From positions 1 to 39,240 of IMG/VR virus record IMGVR_UViG_3300025132_000101: a stretch of DNA of 39,240 bases. The stretch is one strand, 5' to 3'. Below, piece by piece: positions 19,481 through 29,901 of this stretch. The stretch is from a virus. The translations under genes and the position numbers were made by a program. The notes under the pieces are model-generated. The model was given only the letters and a program-made list of their open reading frames with translations. It was not told where the DNA came from and did not search any database. Position 1 is the stretch's first letter. The number at the start of each line of letters is the position of its first letter.

Positions 19481-21019
19481 ATGTCAGGCGCTAGTATCTC
19501 ATTAGCTTATCGTCGCAACGCGATGATGACAGCGACAAAAGTAACGACAAAGCCGCCTAGTGAAGAGGTATTAGAAGCAAGAGATAATTTTATGGCTTTC
19601 TGCAAAACAATGGGAAAGCCCCCAGCCAAACACATGATGGAATGGCATAATGAATTATGTACCGGCAATGATACAGAATGTCTAATGGGGATCGGGGGAG
19701 CAAATACTTCGATCCTCGCGCCCAGAGGATCTGCGAAAAGCACTGTCCTTGGTTTGTTTGCTGCATGGATGATTGGACGACATGCAGCTGCCAAGACAAT
19801 GCTGCGGATATTATATATAGCTTATATGGTTGATATAAGCAGAGCTAAGTCAGCAACTATAAAAGGGATCCTTGCCAGCCCTAAATATCGAGAGATATTT
19901 CCAATGGTTAGATTATCAAAGATAAAACGAAGCGACGAATACTGGTCGATTGATTATGAATTTGCAGGTGTTGATACAGCGGGAGAAGAGGCGTTTACCA
20001 TAGCGTGTGGAGGTCTCAAGGGTGCGATCACATCTAAGCGATCTCAACTCGTACTTATCGATGACCCTATTAAATCCGCTGCGTCCATCTCAAACCCTGA
20101 CATACGTCGTGAGATGGAACAGACATGGAGTAACGTTATTGCGCCGACAATGTTTCAGGGCGCAAGGGCCATATGCTTGGGGACTAGATTCCATTTTGAC
20201 GATATCCATGCCACCCTCTTCGTACCGAAAAACAACTGGAAGCAGATTGTTCAAAAAGCAGTAATTACTGACGACGAAGGTAGGCAACGTTCATATTGGC
20301 CTGATATGTGGTCAATGAAGTATTTGAACGAACGTAAGCTGGAGGACAGGATTGCATTTGCATATCAGTATTTAAACACTGCTGTACAGTCGGGTGATGT
20401 TGGACTTTCGCCCGAGTTAATTGTCAAGGGTGAAACTCCGGACTCATTCGACTGCATTGGCGTAGGTATTGACCTTAGTGCTGGCTTGAATGAAAGAAAT
20501 GACTATACAGTGTTTACGTTGGGTGGCATCGATAATGGCAAGATCTACTTGATTGACCAACGTCGGATCAAGACAATGGGCAATATTGAGAAAATGGATG
20601 CACTTTGTGAAATGCTGGCTGACTGGAACATCCTTTTGGAAAATGAGGATGGCAATTATTTCCCTACAACATCATCTTGTGTAATCTGGCCAGAAGCTGT
20701 TGCATATCAGTCGTCATTCGAAGGTGACTTTAAGCGAGTAATGTTCGAGCAACGTGGTTTGTACAACCTTGCCTGTAGTCCAGTCAAAGGATTTAAAGGC
20801 GACAAGCTATCGCGTTTGCGTGGTGTTCTCGGACTTTATGAACACAAGAAAGTTATTTGGAACAAGTGGCGCAAGTGGGACATCTTGGAAGATGAACTTC
20901 TAAACTTTGGTCAGACAGCACACGATGACTGTGTTGACTCAATGGTGCTTACTATGGGAGGTCTGTTGAGAAGGGGTCAGTTACAATTAGAATATAATGA
21001 TGATAGCTTCTCCGAGTAA
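19481..21019 (+). CDS. terL: Terminase large subunit
   Basis: 512 residues, within the usual size range. The enzyme packages DNA into the procapsid: an N-terminal ATPase drives translocation and a C-terminal RNase H-like nuclease cuts the concatemer. Walker A is APRGSAKST (residues 80-88), Walker B LVLIDDP (190-196), and the coupling-type motif CLGTRFHFDD lies at 232-241. The nuclease domain has Asp331 (VGIDLSAG) and the Asp pair region HDDCVDSM (481-488). An AGGGGA lies 7 bases before the ATG. It precedes the structural and portal genes, the standard order. All key residues are present, so it should be active. Confidence 0.95.
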   Translation: MSGASISLAYRRNAMMTATKVTTKPPSEEVLEARDNFMAFCKTMGKPPAKHMMEWHNELCTGNDTECLMGIGGANTSILAPRGSAKSTVLGLFAAWMIGRHAAAKTMLRILYIAYMVDISRAKSATIKGILASPKYREIFPMVRLSKIKRSDEYWSIDYEFAGVDTAGEEAFTIACGGLKGAITSKRSQLVLIDDPIKSAASISNPDIRREMEQTWSNVIAPTMFQGARAICLGTRFHFDDIHATLFVPKNNWKQIVQKAVITDDEGRQRSYWPDMWSMKYLNERKLEDRIAFAYQYLNTAVQSGDVGLSPELIVKGETPDSFDCIGVGIDLSAGLNERNDYTVFTLGGIDNGKIYLIDQRRIKTMGNIEKMDALCEMLADWNILLENEDGNYFPTTSSCVIWPEAVAYQSSFEGDFKRVMFEQRGLYNLACSPVKGFKGDKLSRLRGVLGLYEHKKVIWNKWRKWDILEDELLNFGQTAHDDCVDSMVLTMGGLLRRGQLQLEYNDDSFSE

Positions 21020-22224: not shown

Positions 22225-24489
22225 ATGAGCAACACTAATCCACAGTTTCAGGAAATCCTCGATTCTGCAAAAGCCCGTCGTGGGGATACAAATACAGACA
22301 CAATGATTGTGGCGTCCCATCTGGCTCAGATGCGGACGTTCATTCTGCGTAGAGGGATTGAGTTTTACTGTGAGCAAGATTCATACGGCAAGCGTCGTGA
22401 TTTTCTGCAAAGAATCTACGACGAGAACATGCTTGAGATGAAGCTTGATAGCATCATCGATCATTTCTTATGTGACGGTCAAGGGCTGTTCTACTTCCGA
22501 CCCTCAGGTGAAGTTTATCAACTGCTTTATTTTCCTAAAGATAGATACCGGTGTTACCGCGATCAAAACAATGAAATTAACAACGTTGTATTGATCTACA
22601 GTTTTGCTGTCAAGGGGAAAGGGTTTGCTGGATCTGCTCCTTCTACATATGGTGCTGCGCCACAGAGAGGTGGTCGTAAAAAGTACATCAGACTATCCGT
22701 ATTCAAAGATCGCATTGAGCAAACAATATCTGATGAAAAGATTGAGTTTGACGATAAGGGCACAGGCTTCCCTTCGCAAGCAAAGCCCGGTTCTACAGAA
22801 ACTCTGACAAACAGTCTTGGCTTCATCCCTGCCGTTGAGATCTTCAACCATCTTGATTGTACTGGTGAGACGTCAGGCCGTGGTGAATTTGATTGGCTGA
22901 GCCATCAAATTATGTTCCACGACGAACTCGTTCGCAACGTCCGAAAGAACATGAAGTTCTTCGGAAACCCCACGTTGGTCTCCAGCCGACCGAAGCATGA
23001 CATTGTTGAGAGTGGAAATGACAGTGGTACAAGACCAACCATCTCTTCAGCTGCTGGCTTCAAGCCAATGCAGGCACCGGGGCAACCTTTCGGTGGTCCA
23101 TCACCTTTAGATGGTCAAATCAAAGTTCCCAGGGTTATTGCAAACCTTGAGCCAACTGACCGCGTCAGCTACATGACACCTGACGCTGTTAGTGGTGACC
23201 AGAACCTTTATGTCAAGCAGTACCGAAGCGAGATTCGTCTTGCACTGGGGGGTGTGGATGACATTGATATCAACACCGCTTCTACTGCGTATGAGATCAA
23301 ATCTCTGTATGGCCGTGTAGCTGCTACTGCAGAGAAGAAAGCTAAAGCCATGTTTGAATTCGGGCTTTGCAAAGTGTTGGCAATGATGATTCAACATGAA
23401 GAGTTCTTGTTTGAAGAGTCTTTTGCCCGTGCTATCGGCTTGCAGAAACCTGTCATTCCTTTGGAAGAAGAATTCAATGGTGATCAGGCTGCATATGAAT
23501 TGGCATTAGGCAATTACCAGCAATTGCAGGCAGCTTTTCTTCAGCAAAGAGACCAACAGTTCCGTGCTAAACTTGACATAGGAGACATACCCCCAGGAGT
23601 AGTTGGTCTAATTCCAGATGGAAGCACTAAAGTTTCTTGGCGATGGACTGGCGAAGTATTTGAAGATGACACTCAAGACATACTTAATAACAGTATTGTC
23701 GTTAGGAACCTTCAAGAACTAGGTGTTGATTCAATTGAGGCACTTAAGTACCTCTTCCCAGGAAAGACAGATGAAGAGAGAGCAGCAATGCTTTCTGGTT
23801 ATCCGTTCCGAATGGTTCAACAAACCCAACAATCTCTGCAATCATTTATTGGGTTGTTGGGACAACTATATCAGTTGCCTCATCCTCAAACACCAAATCT
23901 ACCGTTGGCATCAGATCCCAACCTAGATATTACAGGTTTCCTATACAGATCTCTAGAATTTTTACGTAAGGAGTTAAGTTACAGTGGAAGGTATCAACCA
24001 AGCAGTAGCGACAAGCGCCCCAGCAAGCTCAACGACGCCGACAGGCTCCGCTCCGAGCGCGGTCAGCCCGTCCGCGATGAACGCAGGATTAAGTTACCAG
24101 GCGTCACCGACGACGGCTCAAGCACCAGCAGCTCCGGCACCGATTTACCAACAGCAGGCGGCCCCGGCAGCGACGGGGAATCCATGGCAGGAAGCCTTCC
24201 AGGCTTTGAGCGCAAGTCTGAATACGCCCAGCCAATCCCAAGCCCAGGTTCCGTACTCGGCATATCAAACACCGACGAACCAAGTCAGCTACCAAGCACC
24301 ATTGGGTTCAGTTCTGCAACAGCCGCAAGCCCAGTATTCGGCAGCCCAGACGTTCAGTCCCCAAGCTTCAACCCAGGAGTATTCGGCGCAGGTGGCGGAC
24401 CAGGCCCAATTGGCGGCATTGGCCCAGGCCCAATACCTCAACAGCCAGTCCCAGTACAGCCAGCCCCTCGCCGCAGAAAGCGCAAGTGA
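22225..24489 (+). CDS. Portal protein with long overprinted C-terminal tail
   Basis: 754 residues. Portals form the dodecameric ring at the head vertex through which DNA passes. The first 585 residues are consistent with a portal: N-terminal helical region (IILRRGIEFYCEQDSYG-like), wing strands around DRYRCYRDQNNEINNVVLIY, and the segment YRSEIRLALGGVDDIDINT followed by a long stem-type helix (LYGRVAATAEKKAKAMFEF). Residues from about 587 on are Ser/Pro/Gly-rich and disordered, ending in PAPRRRKRK. That tail is encoded over the same DNA as the start of the next gene in another frame. Assignment rests on position after TerL plus overall pattern. Confidence 0.8.
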   Translation: MSNTNPQFQEILDSAKARRGDTNTDTMIVASHLAQMRTFILRRGIEFYCEQDSYGKRRDFLQRIYDENMLEMKLDSIIDHFLCDGQGLFYFRPSGEVYQLLYFPKDRYRCYRDQNNEINNVVLIYSFAVKGKGFAGSAPSTYGAAPQRGGRKKYIRLSVFKDRIEQTISDEKIEFDDKGTGFPSQAKPGSTETLTNSLGFIPAVEIFNHLDCTGETSGRGEFDWLSHQIMFHDELVRNVRKNMKFFGNPTLVSSRPKHDIVESGNDSGTRPTISSAAGFKPMQAPGQPFGGPSPLDGQIKVPRVIANLEPTDRVSYMTPDAVSGDQNLYVKQYRSEIRLALGGVDDIDINTASTAYEIKSLYGRVAATAEKKAKAMFEFGLCKVLAMMIQHEEFLFEESFARAIGLQKPVIPLEEEFNGDQAAYELALGNYQQLQAAFLQQRDQQFRAKLDIGDIPPGVVGLIPDGSTKVSWRWTGEVFEDDTQDILNNSIVVRNLQELGVDSIEALKYLFPGKTDEERAAMLSGYPFRMVQQTQQSLQSFIGLLGQLYQLPHPQTPNLPLASDPNLDITGFLYRSLEFLRKELSYSGRYQPSSSDKRPSKLNDADRLRSERGQPVRDERRIKLPGVTDDGSSTSSSGTDLPTAGGPGSDGESMAGSLPGFERKSEYAQPIPSPGSVLGISNTDEPSQLPSTIGFSSATAASPVFGSPDVQSPSFNPGVFGAGGGPGPIGGIGPGPIPQQPVPVQPAPRRRKRK

Positions 24490-25027
24490 CGGCTATCTGA
24501 GTCAGATCTCCGACACTAGCCTTGAAGTTCTTGAGCACTTCGGTGCTGAAGCCCCTGCTCTGCTTAACGAGTATGCATGTGCTGTTGAAGATGCTCTGAT
24601 CGAACAGGTCAAAACCGGCCAGGCCATGAACTTGATGCTGAATGCTGCTGGTGAAGAGCGTGCAGCCATGAACATCATGCTGACCGATCCCGACATTTTG
24701 GCTGACTACGTCAACGACTTCTTTGGTGCTAATGGTCCTTACCCAACTGAGACTGAAGATGAAGCTATTGCTTCTAATGCTGCTGCTGCCCGTGCTCAGT
24801 TCGAAGCTGAAATCGCCGCTCAAGAACAGCGTCAAGTTCCTCAAGCTTTCCAGCGTCCGCAGATGAATATGCCGACCCCCGGCGAACAACCTGCTGGTAA
24901 CGATGCTCGTAACTTCTGGAACGGCTTCAGCGAGATGATGGATAACTCTCCCGAGAACGCTTGGAAGTATCTCTCCCAAGCTCCTGGTGCTGCTTTCCAG
25001 ACCAAAGCTCTGATCCAAGATATGTGA
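23984..25027 (+). CDS. Scaffold-like protein overlapping the portal gene
   Basis: 347 residues from GTG 23984, in the +1 frame relative to the portal gene and sharing 506 bases with it. An AAGGAG lies 10 bases before the GTG, so the internal start is credible. Residues 1-168 are Ala/Pro/Ser/Gln-rich and disordered; residues 169-347 are acidic and helical (SLEVLEHFGAEAPALLNEY; LNEYACAVEDALIEQVKTG), typical of scaffolding or core proteins made just before the major capsid protein. The second half uses codons like the neighbouring genes; the overlapped half is GC-rich and atypical. A hairpin (25042-25063) follows the stop. No protease motif is seen. Confidence 0.75.
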   Translation: MEGINQAVATSAPASSTTPTGSAPSAVSPSAMNAGLSYQASPTTAQAPAAPAPIYQQQAAPAATGNPWQEAFQALSASLNTPSQSQAQVPYSAYQTPTNQVSYQAPLGSVLQQPQAQYSAAQTFSPQASTQEYSAQVADQAQLAALAQAQYLNSQSQYSQPLAAESASDGYLSQISDTSLEVLEHFGAEAPALLNEYACAVEDALIEQVKTGQAMNLMLNAAGEERAAMNIMLTDPDILADYVNDFFGANGPYPTETEDEAIASNAAAARAQFEAEIAAQEQRQVPQAFQRPQMNMPTPGEQPAGNDARNFWNGFSEMMDNSPENAWKYLSQAPGAAFQTKALIQDM

Positions 25028-25093: not shown

Positions 25094-25546
25094 ATGAACT
25101 CATTACGTCCTGGTGGTCCTTCTCGTCACGAGATGAGTGACAACGAAATGATGCGCGGCTATGGCGCAATGATGCCTGGCGGCCAAGGTCTTAGCAACCG
25201 TAACGACATGGGCCTCGCTGCCAAAGTTGAATCTGAGCATCAGATGGTTCAGCAGGCAAACTACAAGATGCAGCAAGCTCGGCAGAATATGCGTGACGCA
25301 CTGCCTGGTCAGCAAGTAGCTCAGCAAGATGCCATGCGTGAGATGACACTGGGTGAAAGCGATAAGCAGAACAAACTGCAGACCGGACTTAATGCTTTGA
25401 TGGCAAACATCATTGAAAACGCTACTCCCTCTGGTGGCAAATACTTGACTGAGCTACATGCAACCACTGCTGATCCGGTCGCTGGGCCTGAGTTCCAATC
25501 TCGTCTGCGCAAAGGACAAGCTCTGGGTGTACCTCAAGGCTATTGA
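25094..25546 (+). CDS. Hypothetical head-region protein
   Basis: 150 residues beginning MNSLRPGGPSRHEMSDNEM. Met- and Gln-rich helical centre (QMVQQANYKMQQARQNMRD), then a short globular-looking part (ALMANIIENATPSGGKYLTE) and a tail with QSRLRKGQALGVPQ. No family recognised. It sits between the scaffold-like gene and the sigma factor and has its own promoter-like element. A minor head or core protein is likely from context. Confidence 0.75.
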   Translation: MNSLRPGGPSRHEMSDNEMMRGYGAMMPGGQGLSNRNDMGLAAKVESEHQMVQQANYKMQQARQNMRDALPGQQVAQQDAMREMTLGESDKQNKLQTGLNALMANIIENATPSGGKYLTELHATTADPVAGPEFQSRLRKGQALGVPQGY

Positions 25547-25943: not shown

Positions 25944-26882
25944 ATGCCTCAGCAAAAAATAACTAGTGATCCTGTGAGAGCTTATCTTAAGGACATTGGC
26001 CGAATACCTCTCCTTGCGCATGACGAAGAGATTCTTCTTGGTCGAAAAGTTCAGCGTATGATTGAACTCAACGAAATGAAAAAAGAGCTTGACCTAGATA
26101 ATGCACAACTTGCCGAATCACTTGATGTGCCTGTTCGTCAAGTACTGCGTGAACTTCGTGATGGTAGACGTGCAAAGGACAAGATGGTTACTGCTAATCT
26201 TCGCCTAGTTGTCAGCGTTGCAAAAAAATACACCAAAAGAAATATGGAGCTATTAGATATCATTCAAGAAGGAACTATTGGACTTATCCGTGGCGTTGAA
26301 AAGTTTGATCCTGGTCGTGGCTACAAGTTTTCTACCTACGCCTACTGGTGGATTCGCCAGGGGATCACTCGTGCTATCGCGGAGAAGAGTAGAGCCATAC
26401 GCTTACCGATCCATGTTACTGAAAACCTCAACAAACTTAAGAAAGCCCAGCGTGAATTAAGTCAGCTTAACGGACATCTGCCTACTGTTGAAGAGCTTGC
26501 CGAAGAACTGAACATCACTCAGGATGATGTAAAAGATCTTATGTGCAAAGCACGTCAGCCAACCTCACTTGAAATTAAGATTGGTGAAAACCATGACACT
26601 GCTCTGGTCGACATGCTGGAAGACGCAGATCAAACACCTGAGGTTAACTTAGAAGCAGCTTGTATCAAGGAAGATATTCGTAATGAGATCAGTATGCTGC
26701 CCCGTCTACAAGCTGAAGTAATTAGCATGCGCTATGGGATTGGTGATGACACACTTGAGCCGCTTTCTATGACAGCCATTGGCCAGGTACTAAACATGAG
26801 CCGCGATCGTGTCCGCACTTTAGAGCATAAAGCACTCCGCACTCTTCGGGAGAATGGAAGTCAGGTTGCAGAATATCTGTAA
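25944..26882 (+). CDS. Sigma-70 family factor, group 2 type
   Basis: 312 residues. Region 1.2 (DPVRAYLKDIGRIPLL, residues 9-24), then a non-conserved helical insert with an HTH-like segment (AQLAESLDVPVRQVLRE), region 2 (about 80-155: NLRLVVSVAKKYTKRN, DIIQEGTIGLIRGVEKFD, YKFSTYAYWWIRQGITRA), region 3 (about 160-235) and region 4 (about 245-305: AEVISMRYGIGDD and the -35 helix SRDRVRTLEHKALRTL). No region 1.1, as in group 2 factors. The sequence style is that of cyanobacterial group 2 sigma factors, so it was probably captured from a host. It should redirect host RNA polymerase. Its place among capsid genes suggests a late-gene role, which is inference. Confidence 0.93.
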   Translation: MPQQKITSDPVRAYLKDIGRIPLLAHDEEILLGRKVQRMIELNEMKKELDLDNAQLAESLDVPVRQVLRELRDGRRAKDKMVTANLRLVVSVAKKYTKRNMELLDIIQEGTIGLIRGVEKFDPGRGYKFSTYAYWWIRQGITRAIAEKSRAIRLPIHVTENLNKLKKAQRELSQLNGHLPTVEELAEELNITQDDVKDLMCKARQPTSLEIKIGENHDTALVDMLEDADQTPEVNLEAACIKEDIRNEISMLPRLQAEVISMRYGIGDDTLEPLSMTAIGQVLNMSRDRVRTLEHKALRTLRENGSQVAEYL

Positions 26883-26912: not shown

Positions 26913-27608
26913 ATGACACGGGATGTAACTAATGCTGTTCAACGCATACGCAACACTTATGGTGGTAGTGATAATACTAACCCTCGCAACTTATCTGCAA
27001 ACAAGTCGATTAATTATGCGAGCGGTAACACCTTTATCAATGCCAACTCACTTCGCGTTACTGTTGCACCATCTAGCTTTACTCTCACTGGAGAAGTGGG
27101 GCTATTTGGTGTAGAAAATGATTTTATCAAAATAGATTTAAATATACTGAATACCGGAGGAGGCGGTGCAAGCATTCCTGACAATGATGGGTACTCTTCT
27201 GCATCATTTATTCAAGAACCTGAAACCAGTGATTACGCTGATGCAGCAGTAGATTACACATTAGATACAACAGTTGTAAATAGCTATAATGCTGCTGCCC
27301 TATCAAATACTCTTGCTAATTACTACTTACCCACTGTAGACATTAAACTGATCAATAATGGCACAGGAAATATTTATATGGACAGTCATGTAGATGTAAG
27401 TCTATATACAGAAGACCGCCGCCCTCTAGCATTTGATAACGCTTTTGTGTCAGCGCAAGGATGTTTCTTTATTGGAATCCACGCAAGAAAATCACGACGT
27501 CTGCCTTACAACGTAAGCGTGACGCTTGGTGAAAGATATGTTTCTCTGCTTGACTTAAACGCAAATGAAAGAGACAAAGTCCTTACTACGTTAGGAGGCA
27601 GTTACTGA
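26913..27608 (+). CDS. Hypothetical virion protein
   Basis: 231 residues starting MTRDVTNAVQRIRNTYGGS. After an Asn/Ser-rich opening it is beta-rich (SLRVTVAPSSFTLTGEVGL; KIDLNILNTGGGGASIPD) with an acidic middle (EPETSDYADAAVDYTLD). The C-terminal segment PYNVSVTLGERYVSLLDLN could form a beta sandwich edge. No domain recognised. It precedes the capsid gene with only minus-strand genes between and probably encodes a head protein. Its 3' end overlaps the convergent Ig-like gene by 18 bases. Confidence 0.75.
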   Translation: MTRDVTNAVQRIRNTYGGSDNTNPRNLSANKSINYASGNTFINANSLRVTVAPSSFTLTGEVGLFGVENDFIKIDLNILNTGGGGASIPDNDGYSSASFIQEPETSDYADAAVDYTLDTTVVNSYNAAALSNTLANYYLPTVDIKLINNGTGNIYMDSHVDVSLYTEDRRPLAFDNAFVSAQGCFFIGIHARKSRRLPYNVSVTLGERYVSLLDLNANERDKVLTTLGGSY

Positions 27609-28247
27609 CAGAGTCTCAGCTACAGGAGCATCTGTTGCAGATTCAGAGGTGATGTTACAAGTAACGTTGTACGTTCCGGCTTGATTAAACACGATGTTGA
27701 CCGTTGCTAAATCTTCATCAGTCACGCTTGCAGAGTTAGTCGTGACCCAGTTGTAAACAATATCCTTGGCATTGCCAGTAATAGAAACCGAATAAGACTC
27801 ATTATTGCCTACTTCAGCGGTTACATCTCCGGTTATGGTTACTGTACCAATAGTTATATTTGGCAAATCCGCGAGTGTACGCTTCAGAGTGGAGCCCCCG
27901 GCGATTCTAGAAAATTGATACTCCTGCAACAATGTAGTCCCTTTTGTTCCAAAAACCCCGATACGCTCGACACCACGATGAATGGGGAACTTAAATGTTT
28001 GAGTTACGTCATCCCAAATAATTTCTAGATGTGTTTTAACAGTCGTTGGAATTACAATACGTATATTACCTCCAGCACGTGTGACTTCAAAGATTGTCAC
28101 AGTTTCATATTGAACAGTACCCTTCTTGTTCCACCAACGTGGAAACATATGATATCCAGGCCCTTTAGTAGACTGAACCAAAGCAAGGTCACTACCTGTT
28201 TGGCCAGATACATCTTTATAGCCTTTGAGGGTAAGTCTGTCAGCCAT
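27591..28247 (-). CDS. Protein with Ig-like C-terminal domain
   Basis: 218 residues on the minus strand inside the plus-strand head block. Residues 1-125 are beta-rich and end in the segment EYQFSRIAGGSTLKRTLADL. Residues 130-218 look like one immunoglobulin-like (PKD/Big type) fold: ITIGTVTITGDVTAEVGNN, YSVSITGNAKDIVYNWVTT, AGTYNVTCNITSESA. Such domains decorate phage capsids and tails and help binding to carbohydrates or surfaces. It overlaps the 3' end of the previous gene by 18 bases. A CTACAAT lies upstream within the HNH gene end. It could be a decoration or host-binding protein; the family is inferred from pattern. Confidence 0.7.
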   Translation of the reverse strand: MADRLTLKGYKDVSGQTGSDLALVQSTKGPGYHMFPRWWNKKGTVQYETVTIFEVTRAGGNIRIVIPTTVKTHLEIIWDDVTQTFKFPIHRGVERIGVFGTKGTTLLQEYQFSRIAGGSTLKRTLADLPNITIGTVTITGDVTAEVGNNESYSVSITGNAKDIVYNWVTTNSASVTDEDLATVNIVFNQAGTYNVTCNITSESATDAPVAETLSVTAS

Positions 28248-28274
28248 GGGAGTTATTTAAACGAAGCAATATTT

Positions 28275-28637
28275 CTATTGTAGATGATTTCTAGTAGACC
28301 ACTTAAGATTAGTTACAGTGCAGTTCGCCCGATTACCATCGATATGCGTAACGCCACTACATCCTTTTTTACGACCATAAGGAGTAGGTGCAGTGGGCAA
28401 AAACGCCAAGGCAACGAGCTTATGAATATAGACTGAGATTATAGATTTACGTCCTATACGCTGAGTTAAGTTCACAGATAAATAGCCGCGTTTACTTACT
28501 TTAGGTTTAAGGACACGTTCAACTACACCCTTAGTGGATTTTATTGATCCCGCTTTGTTTACATAGTATTCGATGCAGCACTCAAAGCCTGGGAGGGAAT
28601 GTATAGGTACCCATTCATTGCTATCTATAAATTCCAT
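28275..28637 (-). CDS. Free-standing HNH homing endonuclease
   Basis: 120 residues. Residues 5-45 carry the NUMOD4 pattern (EWVPIHSLPGFECCIEYY, then NKAGSIKS), and residues 65-120 the HNH nuclease (YIHKLVALAFLP; THIDGNRANCTVTNLKWST) with the His, Asn and Asn/His landmarks. The domain pair is typical of phage homing endonucleases that cut intron-less alleles of neighbouring genes and spread by repair. It lies on the minus strand 109 bases before the capsid gene. The preferred target may be in the adjacent capsid region. Complete and apparently intact. Confidence 0.88.
   Translation of the reverse strand: MEFIDSNEWVPIHSLPGFECCIEYYVNKAGSIKSTKGVVERVLKPKVSKRGYLSVNLTQRIGRKSIISVYIHKLVALAFLPTAPTPYGRKKGCSGVTHIDGNRANCTVTNLKWSTRNHLQ
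28277..28283 (-). promoter_or_regulatory. CTACAAT promoter candidate, minus strand
   Basis: CTACAAT read on the minus strand, 29 bases before the ATG of the Ig-like gene, inside the 3' end of the HNH gene. It is the same motif as on the plus strand. Confidence 0.5.
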
Positions 28638-28746: not shown

Positions 28747-29901
28747 ATGTGGATTGATAATGATTTTCCGAAACTTCTTGGTGCAGAACTTTACCGTCCG
28801 CACCCGGCATACATCATTGAGATGGCTGTGGAACCTGTGGTGGTACATGACTTCAGCAAGCAACCCGGTCAGACAGTTCAACTGGACCGCTATCGCTTCT
28901 GGGGTAAGCCTGGCACCAAGGAGTCTCGTGAGCGTACCGCCGACCAAACTCTTGGAACCGCTTCTGCCCGTAACATCGTTAAAGACAAAGTTTTGGTGAC
29001 TCTTCGTGAGTACACCGGACCTGCTGATACACGTGATTCTGCACAACCTTCTACCTTTAAGGTAGCCCGAGAGACCCTGATCACTGCTCAGCGTCTGCTT
29101 CTCGATACCGGCAACCTGAATGTTTTTCATCAGTCCATCGGTTCGCTAACCCTTCTGGACGACTATCGCCGCTGGCGTGATCGCGTTTTCGCCAACGAAC
29201 TCCTGAAAGCAGAAGCCAATGGCGCTGCTTCTAAGGATCAAGGTGGTTACTACCTGCCCGGCAGTAAGGTGAAAACTGCTGGTTCCGGTGGAACTCTGGG
29301 TGTTACTTACGCTACAGGTGCTTCTGCCAAGTTCGATGTCACCACCGACCTGCTTGAGGTGGTTAAGGACATGCGTAAGCGCAACGTCCCTACCTTCTCT
29401 GATGGTTACTACCGCTGCATCGTCGATCCGACAGCGATGATGCACCTGCGCCAAAACAGCGACTTCCGTGAGATTGCTCGTTACCCCGGTAGCGGCATGA
29501 TCAACCCGATGTCCCCTGCTGAAGCTCCTAACGCCAACTTCTACCAAGGCATGGGTCCTGCCTATGGCCAAGCTGGTTTCGTTGCTGGACAACCTGTTAT
29601 GCCTTCTGGCTTTCTCTTTGAAGGCGTCCGTTGGTTTGAGTCTACCAACCTGCCTGAGACCACTTACAACCTCGTGATTAACGATGCTGGGTCTAGCTCT
29701 GCTGCTGATTACACAGCTAGTCAGCTGATCTTCTTCGGTCCTCAAGCTGTAGGTGTGGGTATTGGTGGTAACAACGCTCAGATTTTGTTGAACAACAACG
29801 ATGACTTCAGTCGTTTCATCATCATGATCTGGTCATTGTTCGCCGGGTTTGAAGTTCTGAATAAGGACTTCATCACTGTTGGTTACTCTTTCGTATATTG
29901 A
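28747..29901 (+). CDS. Major capsid protein candidate
   Basis: 384 residues, cytoplasmic and beta-rich without membrane or signal segments, as expected for an HK97-fold capsid protein. Position (after portal and scaffold) and the strongly C-biased codon choice typical of highly expressed genes support this. N-terminal helix region VVVHDFSKQPGQTVQLDRY, a loop region with GTKESRERTADQT, and C-terminal strands (GVGIGGNNAQILLNNNDD; LNKDFITVGYSFVY). A GGAG lies 11 bases before the ATG. No separate protease gene was found, so a maturation protease may be absent or lie elsewhere. The call is by context and composition. Confidence 0.8.
   Translation: MWIDNDFPKLLGAELYRPHPAYIIEMAVEPVVVHDFSKQPGQTVQLDRYRFWGKPGTKESRERTADQTLGTASARNIVKDKVLVTLREYTGPADTRDSAQPSTFKVARETLITAQRLLLDTGNLNVFHQSIGSLTLLDDYRRWRDRVFANELLKAEANGAASKDQGGYYLPGSKVKTAGSGGTLGVTYATGASAKFDVTTDLLEVVKDMRKRNVPTFSDGYYRCIVDPTAMMHLRQNSDFREIARYPGSGMINPMSPAEAPNANFYQGMGPAYGQAGFVAGQPVMPSGFLFEGVRWFESTNLPETTYNLVINDAGSSSAADYTASQLIFFGPQAVGVGIGGNNAQILLNNNDDFSRFIIMIWSLFAGFEVLNKDFITVGYSFVY

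Follow-up and report, generated by a model that had tools for sequence, protein, structure and literature searches.

The window (the whole stretch of DNA analysed, 39,240 nt) is a 39-kb virus fragment from a lineage represented in the phage collection by a single isolate, Synechococcus phage S-EIV1. On its plus strand a portal-like open reading frame (ORF) runs from ATG 22225 to TGA 24489 (754 aa), and a second ORF, the probable scaffolding protein gene, runs from GTG 23984 to TGA 25027 (347 aa) in the +1 frame of the portal. The two share 506 nt (23984–24489, plus strand), in which the N-terminal half of the second ORF lies over the portal tail. A Shine-Dalgarno-like AAGGAG is found inside the portal gene at 23968–23973 (plus strand). 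A preliminary description of this DNA had given these coordinates, the +1 phase and the AAGGAG 10 bases before GTG 23984, and all are exact on recheck. Its GC counts are also right (41 of 60 bases at 24001–24060, 31 of 60 at 24541–24600); GC content is 61% in the overlap, above both the portal body (45%) and the remainder of the scaffold gene (51%). We agree that both products are of low complexity in the overlap (Ser/Pro/Gly versus Ala/Pro/Gln).

Residues 1 to approximately 587 of the portal form a conserved body, and the remainder is a disordered, Ser/Pro/Gly-rich tail. The protein matches the head and packaging family phrog_20475 (E=4e-176), and 10 of 18 family members match phrog_64, ‘portal protein’, with a best E of 7e-4. 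Nearly all leading PDB matches in a Foldseek search with the low-confidence AlphaFold model (mean pLDDT 41) are phage portals, including those of T7 and cyanophage P-SCSP1u. A sequence search of solved structures gave no match for the portal or the scaffold candidate. The gene order is terminase (19481–21019), portal and, further downstream, major head protein (28747–29901); together with the phrog_64 and Foldseek matches, this backs the original portal call. The tail does end, as first described, in RRRKRK (24469–24486, plus strand), a basic cluster that is kept in relatives: the last 15 portal residues carry a net charge of at least +3 in 135 of 139 relatives (median +6).

The second protein is acidic, with an Ala/Gln/Pro-rich N half. 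In a low-confidence AF2 model (mean pLDDT 54) this half is mostly disordered with short helices, one of them at an NPW motif, and the C half of the same low-confidence model contains long helices. The motif, N-P-W-x-x-A-F (24179–24199, plus strand), has the highest conservation within the overlapped scaffold half; N66, P67, W68, A71 and F72 are invariant in 18 aligned members from both clades described below, and a single substitution, S for N at the first motif position, occurs in locus L167. In S-EIV1 the order is portal, second ORF, one further ORF and a major capsid protein 68.6% identical to that of the window. The intervening S-EIV1 ORF has no similarity to the 150-aa ORF at 25094 of the window, and of the genes from portal to major capsid protein, only the second ORF is conserved.

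From this position and from its acidic, disordered-then-helical make-up, our best inference is that the second protein is a scaffolding protein. The scaffold-like assignment made at the outset is probable, in keeping with the gene's position and the protein's acidity and with C-half helices predicted at low confidence, and lacks a match to a known scaffold family: searches of PHROGs, Pfam and PDB sequences gave none for the candidate. Scaffold families diverge fast, so the missing match lowers the probability of scaffold membership but does not exclude it. Taken with the weak AF2 model, it leaves some room for another kind of head protein (an internal virion protein, a decoration protein or a maturation factor), in which case the dual coding would stand. 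We regard this as unlikely, though the most credible of the alternatives, given an acidic protein with disordered and long helical parts, encoded between portal and major capsid in S-EIV1 where no other gene is conserved.

Some neighbouring genes deserve mention. In the window, an RpoD-like sigma factor gene, recognized by eye, lies between the scaffold and major capsid genes (25944–26882), and two minus-strand ORFs occur within the plus-strand head module (27591–28637). One of these (28275–28637, minus strand) resembles by eye an HNH-type homing endonuclease and is possibly an insertion. In S-EIV1 the major capsid ORF is intact (L241:3860–4990; KJ410740.1 60859–61989) but is unannotated as such, being covered instead by a minus-strand CDS (AHV82227) and a truncated plus-strand CDS (AHV82228).

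Overlap in related viruses

A scan of viral contigs with the window portal returned 80 loci at 69–92% identity. A second large clade came to light in scans that started from S-EIV1 and from a related contig, each of which gave at least 600 matching stretches. Portals of the window-like and S-EIV1-like clades are approximately 50% identical. We label the clades marine and freshwater, respectively, after the arctic lake origin of S-EIV1 and the published link of the S-EIV1 group to ocean samples (PMC5332604); the labels do not describe the habitats of single contigs. Both frames are open in 212 loci with 149 distinct overlap sequences from both clades, over 443–638 nt. Marine overlaps measure 443–539 nt and begin with GTG, and freshwater overlaps measure 554–638 nt and begin with ATG, with one locus, L167, at 545 nt. 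S-EIV1 and its environmental relatives, the closest known system, share with the window the gene order and the overlap itself (554 nt in S-EIV1, with AAGGAG and an ATG start). The isolate differs in its deposited annotation (KJ410740), from which the overlap is absent: the second gene, AHV82225, begins 23 nt past the portal stop, and approximately 184 residues are missing.

The GC-rich overlap and its low-complexity products would fit a second frame that is long by chance, owing to repetitive DNA of high GC content, or that is a sequencing artefact. However, the two frames stay open across the overlap, as originally noted, more than chance allows in both of two shuffling tests. Shuffling portal codons by position gives a mean of 5.8 stops in the +1 frame (open frame p=0.0005), and synonymous shuffling gives a mean of 3.0 (p=0.0045). 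Stops abound in the third forward frame, with 5 in the window overlap and means of 5.7 and 7.5 in marine and freshwater relatives (139-locus subset), whereas the second frame is uninterrupted in 149 distinct sequences, which come from independent assemblies and one isolate. On the third-frame stops and the conservation we reject a chance ORF, and its probability is negligible.

Relatives with a stop codon in one frame across the overlap would have spoken against dual coding, and a single contig, L074, has a broken frame there. Several apparent indels cross its portal and scaffold genes (L074:5725–7000), and both frames hop, inside as well as outside the overlap; we attribute these to probable assembly or sequencing errors and do not count the contig as a real broken relative. 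Locus L064 has a frame break confined to the non-overlapping part of the scaffold gene. No outgroup without the overlap was found, and scans of genome contigs and further viral contigs returned the same two clades. Apart from S-EIV1, no isolate yielded a homologue in a tblastn search with the portal, and terminase relatives in isolates are approximately 24% identical. Five contigs of the lineage (L163–L167) had been assigned to MAGs of unrelated bacteria (Blastopirellula, Crocinitomicaceae, Rhodobacteraceae and others), probably through contamination.

Selection on both frames

Substitution patterns in relatives had been proposed as a check of dual coding, and we ran it on substitution classes. 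Close, disjoint pairs (19 marine, 25 freshwater) were compared. All single changes that could occur were sorted according to what they do in each frame, under a single-hit filter, and intervals were obtained by bootstrap. Because that filter may depress every rate, the ratios that follow are relative measures. Given a scaffold-changing mutation, the portal-frame ratio is 0.22 (0.14–0.34) in the marine and 0.25 (0.17–0.35) in the freshwater clade; given a portal-changing mutation, the scaffold-frame ratio is 0.11 (0.08–0.14) and 0.09 (0.06–0.13). Doubly synonymous sites are few, which weakens the estimates at sites silent in the other frame: constraint on the portal tail at scaffold-synonymous sites is moderate, with a ratio of 0.75 in the marine clade (0.47–1.64, an interval that includes 1) and 0.44 (0.31–0.73) in the freshwater clade, and the scaffold ratio at portal-synonymous sites is 0.36 and 0.17. 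When the single-hit filter is omitted, doubly silent changes in the overlap occur at a rate of 0.089, which equals the neutral rate of 0.080–0.089 for silent changes in single-coding flanks, and the rates are 0.046 for changes silent in the scaffold frame only, 0.029 for those silent in the portal frame only and 0.019 for those silent in neither. Among the 19 marine and 25 freshwater pairs, none of the single changes observed introduces a stop into either frame. On the substitution pattern, both frames are under purifying selection in both clades, more strongly in the scaffold frame, and the preliminary claim of true dual coding gains support from this constraint together with the two-clade conservation.

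It could still be argued that only the scaffold frame matters and that the portal tail is tolerated read-through, held open by composition, given that the tail is of low complexity and its constraint is below that of the scaffold frame. However, scaffold-synonymous changes that would make a portal stop number 0 against approximately 30 expected from the rate of the other scaffold-synonymous changes (approximately 1,400 weighted opportunities), changes non-synonymous in both frames are depleted 4-fold relative to portal-synonymous ones, and the basic portal C-terminus is retained in 135 of 139 relatives. We consider this reading improbable.

Codon usage bears weakly on the order of origin, for which the preliminary description had offered a new tail formed by read-through across a gene already there, or the converse. 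The shift in scaffold codons just after the portal stop, pointed out earlier, is real: the scaffold frame stands at −0.25 inside the overlap and +0.09 outside. The portal frame is likewise atypical in the overlap (−0.16). It is the nearer of the two to local codon usage in 50 of 63 marine and 44 of 61 freshwater cases, with both frames atypical. By codon usage the evidence leans weakly towards an older portal frame, whereas constraint is stronger on the scaffold frame.

Start site of the second gene

A TAA in the scaffold frame at 23975–23977 (plus strand) recurs at this position in almost every marine relative, with TGA in the freshwater clade. It is in frame, so the scaffold N-terminus should lie at or after GTG 23984. 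Immediately before the overlap the portal alone would be expected to constrain the DNA, yet across AAGGAG and the start codon portal-synonymous heterozygosity is approximately 0, compared with upstream means of 0.49 (marine) and 0.40 (freshwater). The marine GTG and the freshwater ATG differ in place by one codon, the GTG being further downstream, and AAGGAG has not moved, which gives spacings of 10 and 7 nt, the former slightly long. A ribosome-binding site that is fixed while the start codon shifts is the trace that would be expected of real initiation, and we infer that the second protein is made by internal initiation. The start precedes the portal stop by approximately 500 nt, so coupling to portal termination would not be expected. 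RNA structure at the start is no more stable than in shuffled sequences (z=1.15).

The same strand, the +1 frame and a Shine-Dalgarno-like sequence that could stimulate shifting are also compatible with ribosomal frameshifting from the portal frame, which would yield a portal–scaffold fusion. We hold this to be very unlikely, given that the conserved site is initiation-like (AAGGAG, 7–10 nt, then ATG or GTG), is frozen in both clades with the start moved by one codon and, unlike RF2-type shifts, has no portal stop codon.

Discussion

We conclude, with a probability of roughly 0.85, that the overlap is an old, maintained case of dual coding, in which the portal tail and the N half of a probable scaffold would be read from one DNA, the second by internal initiation. 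Ribosomes on the head-gene mRNA would make a portal with a disordered, basic C-terminal tail of approximately 165 residues, and other ribosomes would initiate independently at AAGGAG and GTG within the portal gene to produce the following head protein, which is most likely the scaffold. The disordered, Ala/Gln/Pro-rich N half of the scaffold would be read from the portal-tail DNA in the +1 frame. Both frames are thus probably translated. Both segments appear flexible and linker-like, so long dual coding may be tolerable.

In known portals the C-terminal tail exits the barrel into the capsid interior. In P22 the C-terminal part of the portal is a helical barrel that lacks structure in the procapsid; the crown and wing are enclosed by scaffold (PMC12005531). 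A basic portal tail beside an acidic scaffold suggests contact in assembly or with DNA, and the tail may help the portal to meet the scaffold or DNA. A bolder proposal, which we offer as speculation and think improbable as a whole, is that this is an ancient overprint, maintained in a cyanophage lineage of global distribution, whose two products bind each other: the acidic scaffold would be the docking site of the basic portal tail, and one segment would encode both sides, or both tethers, of portal–scaffold nucleation.

Comparable arrangements occur in well-known phages. In phiX174 the internal scaffolding protein B lies wholly inside gene A, which encodes a replication protein, in another frame. 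The likeness is an out-of-frame scaffold inside another gene with internal initiation, but phiX174 is a small single-stranded DNA phage with full nesting, whereas the present case is a partial overlap of two head genes in a tailed double-stranded DNA phage. In lambda the Nu3 scaffold is nested in C in the same frame; there, as would be the case here, translation of a scaffold product initiates inside the adjoining head gene, but Nu3 shares the amino-acid sequence of C, whereas here two different sequences would come from one DNA. In reference genomes of viruses the median +1 overlap is 14 nt, with an interquartile range of 8–26 (PMC8903798); such overlaps share the strand arrangement and the common phase with the present overlap, which is 443–638 nt long. 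In the literature searched, which included few subscription journals, we found no tailed phage with a conserved portal/scaffold out-of-frame overlap of this length, and no paper on the S-EIV1-lineage overlap itself. Overlapping genes are known; one of such length, out of frame and conserved, in a pair of head genes of tailed phages appears to be a new form.

Long out-of-frame overlaps are usually regarded as a small-virus habit. Here, one is kept across two essential-looking head genes in a phage lineage whose one complete isolate has a 79-kb genome, which suggests that, given two disordered products, a large genome can also keep a long stretch of dual coding. Truncation of such genes is to be expected from gene callers with a limit on same-strand overlap; it occurred in the only isolate, and databases probably do not hold the correct second protein for the whole lineage. 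With 149 distinct sequences in two clades, the lineage offers a well-sampled natural case for two proteins that would share one DNA.
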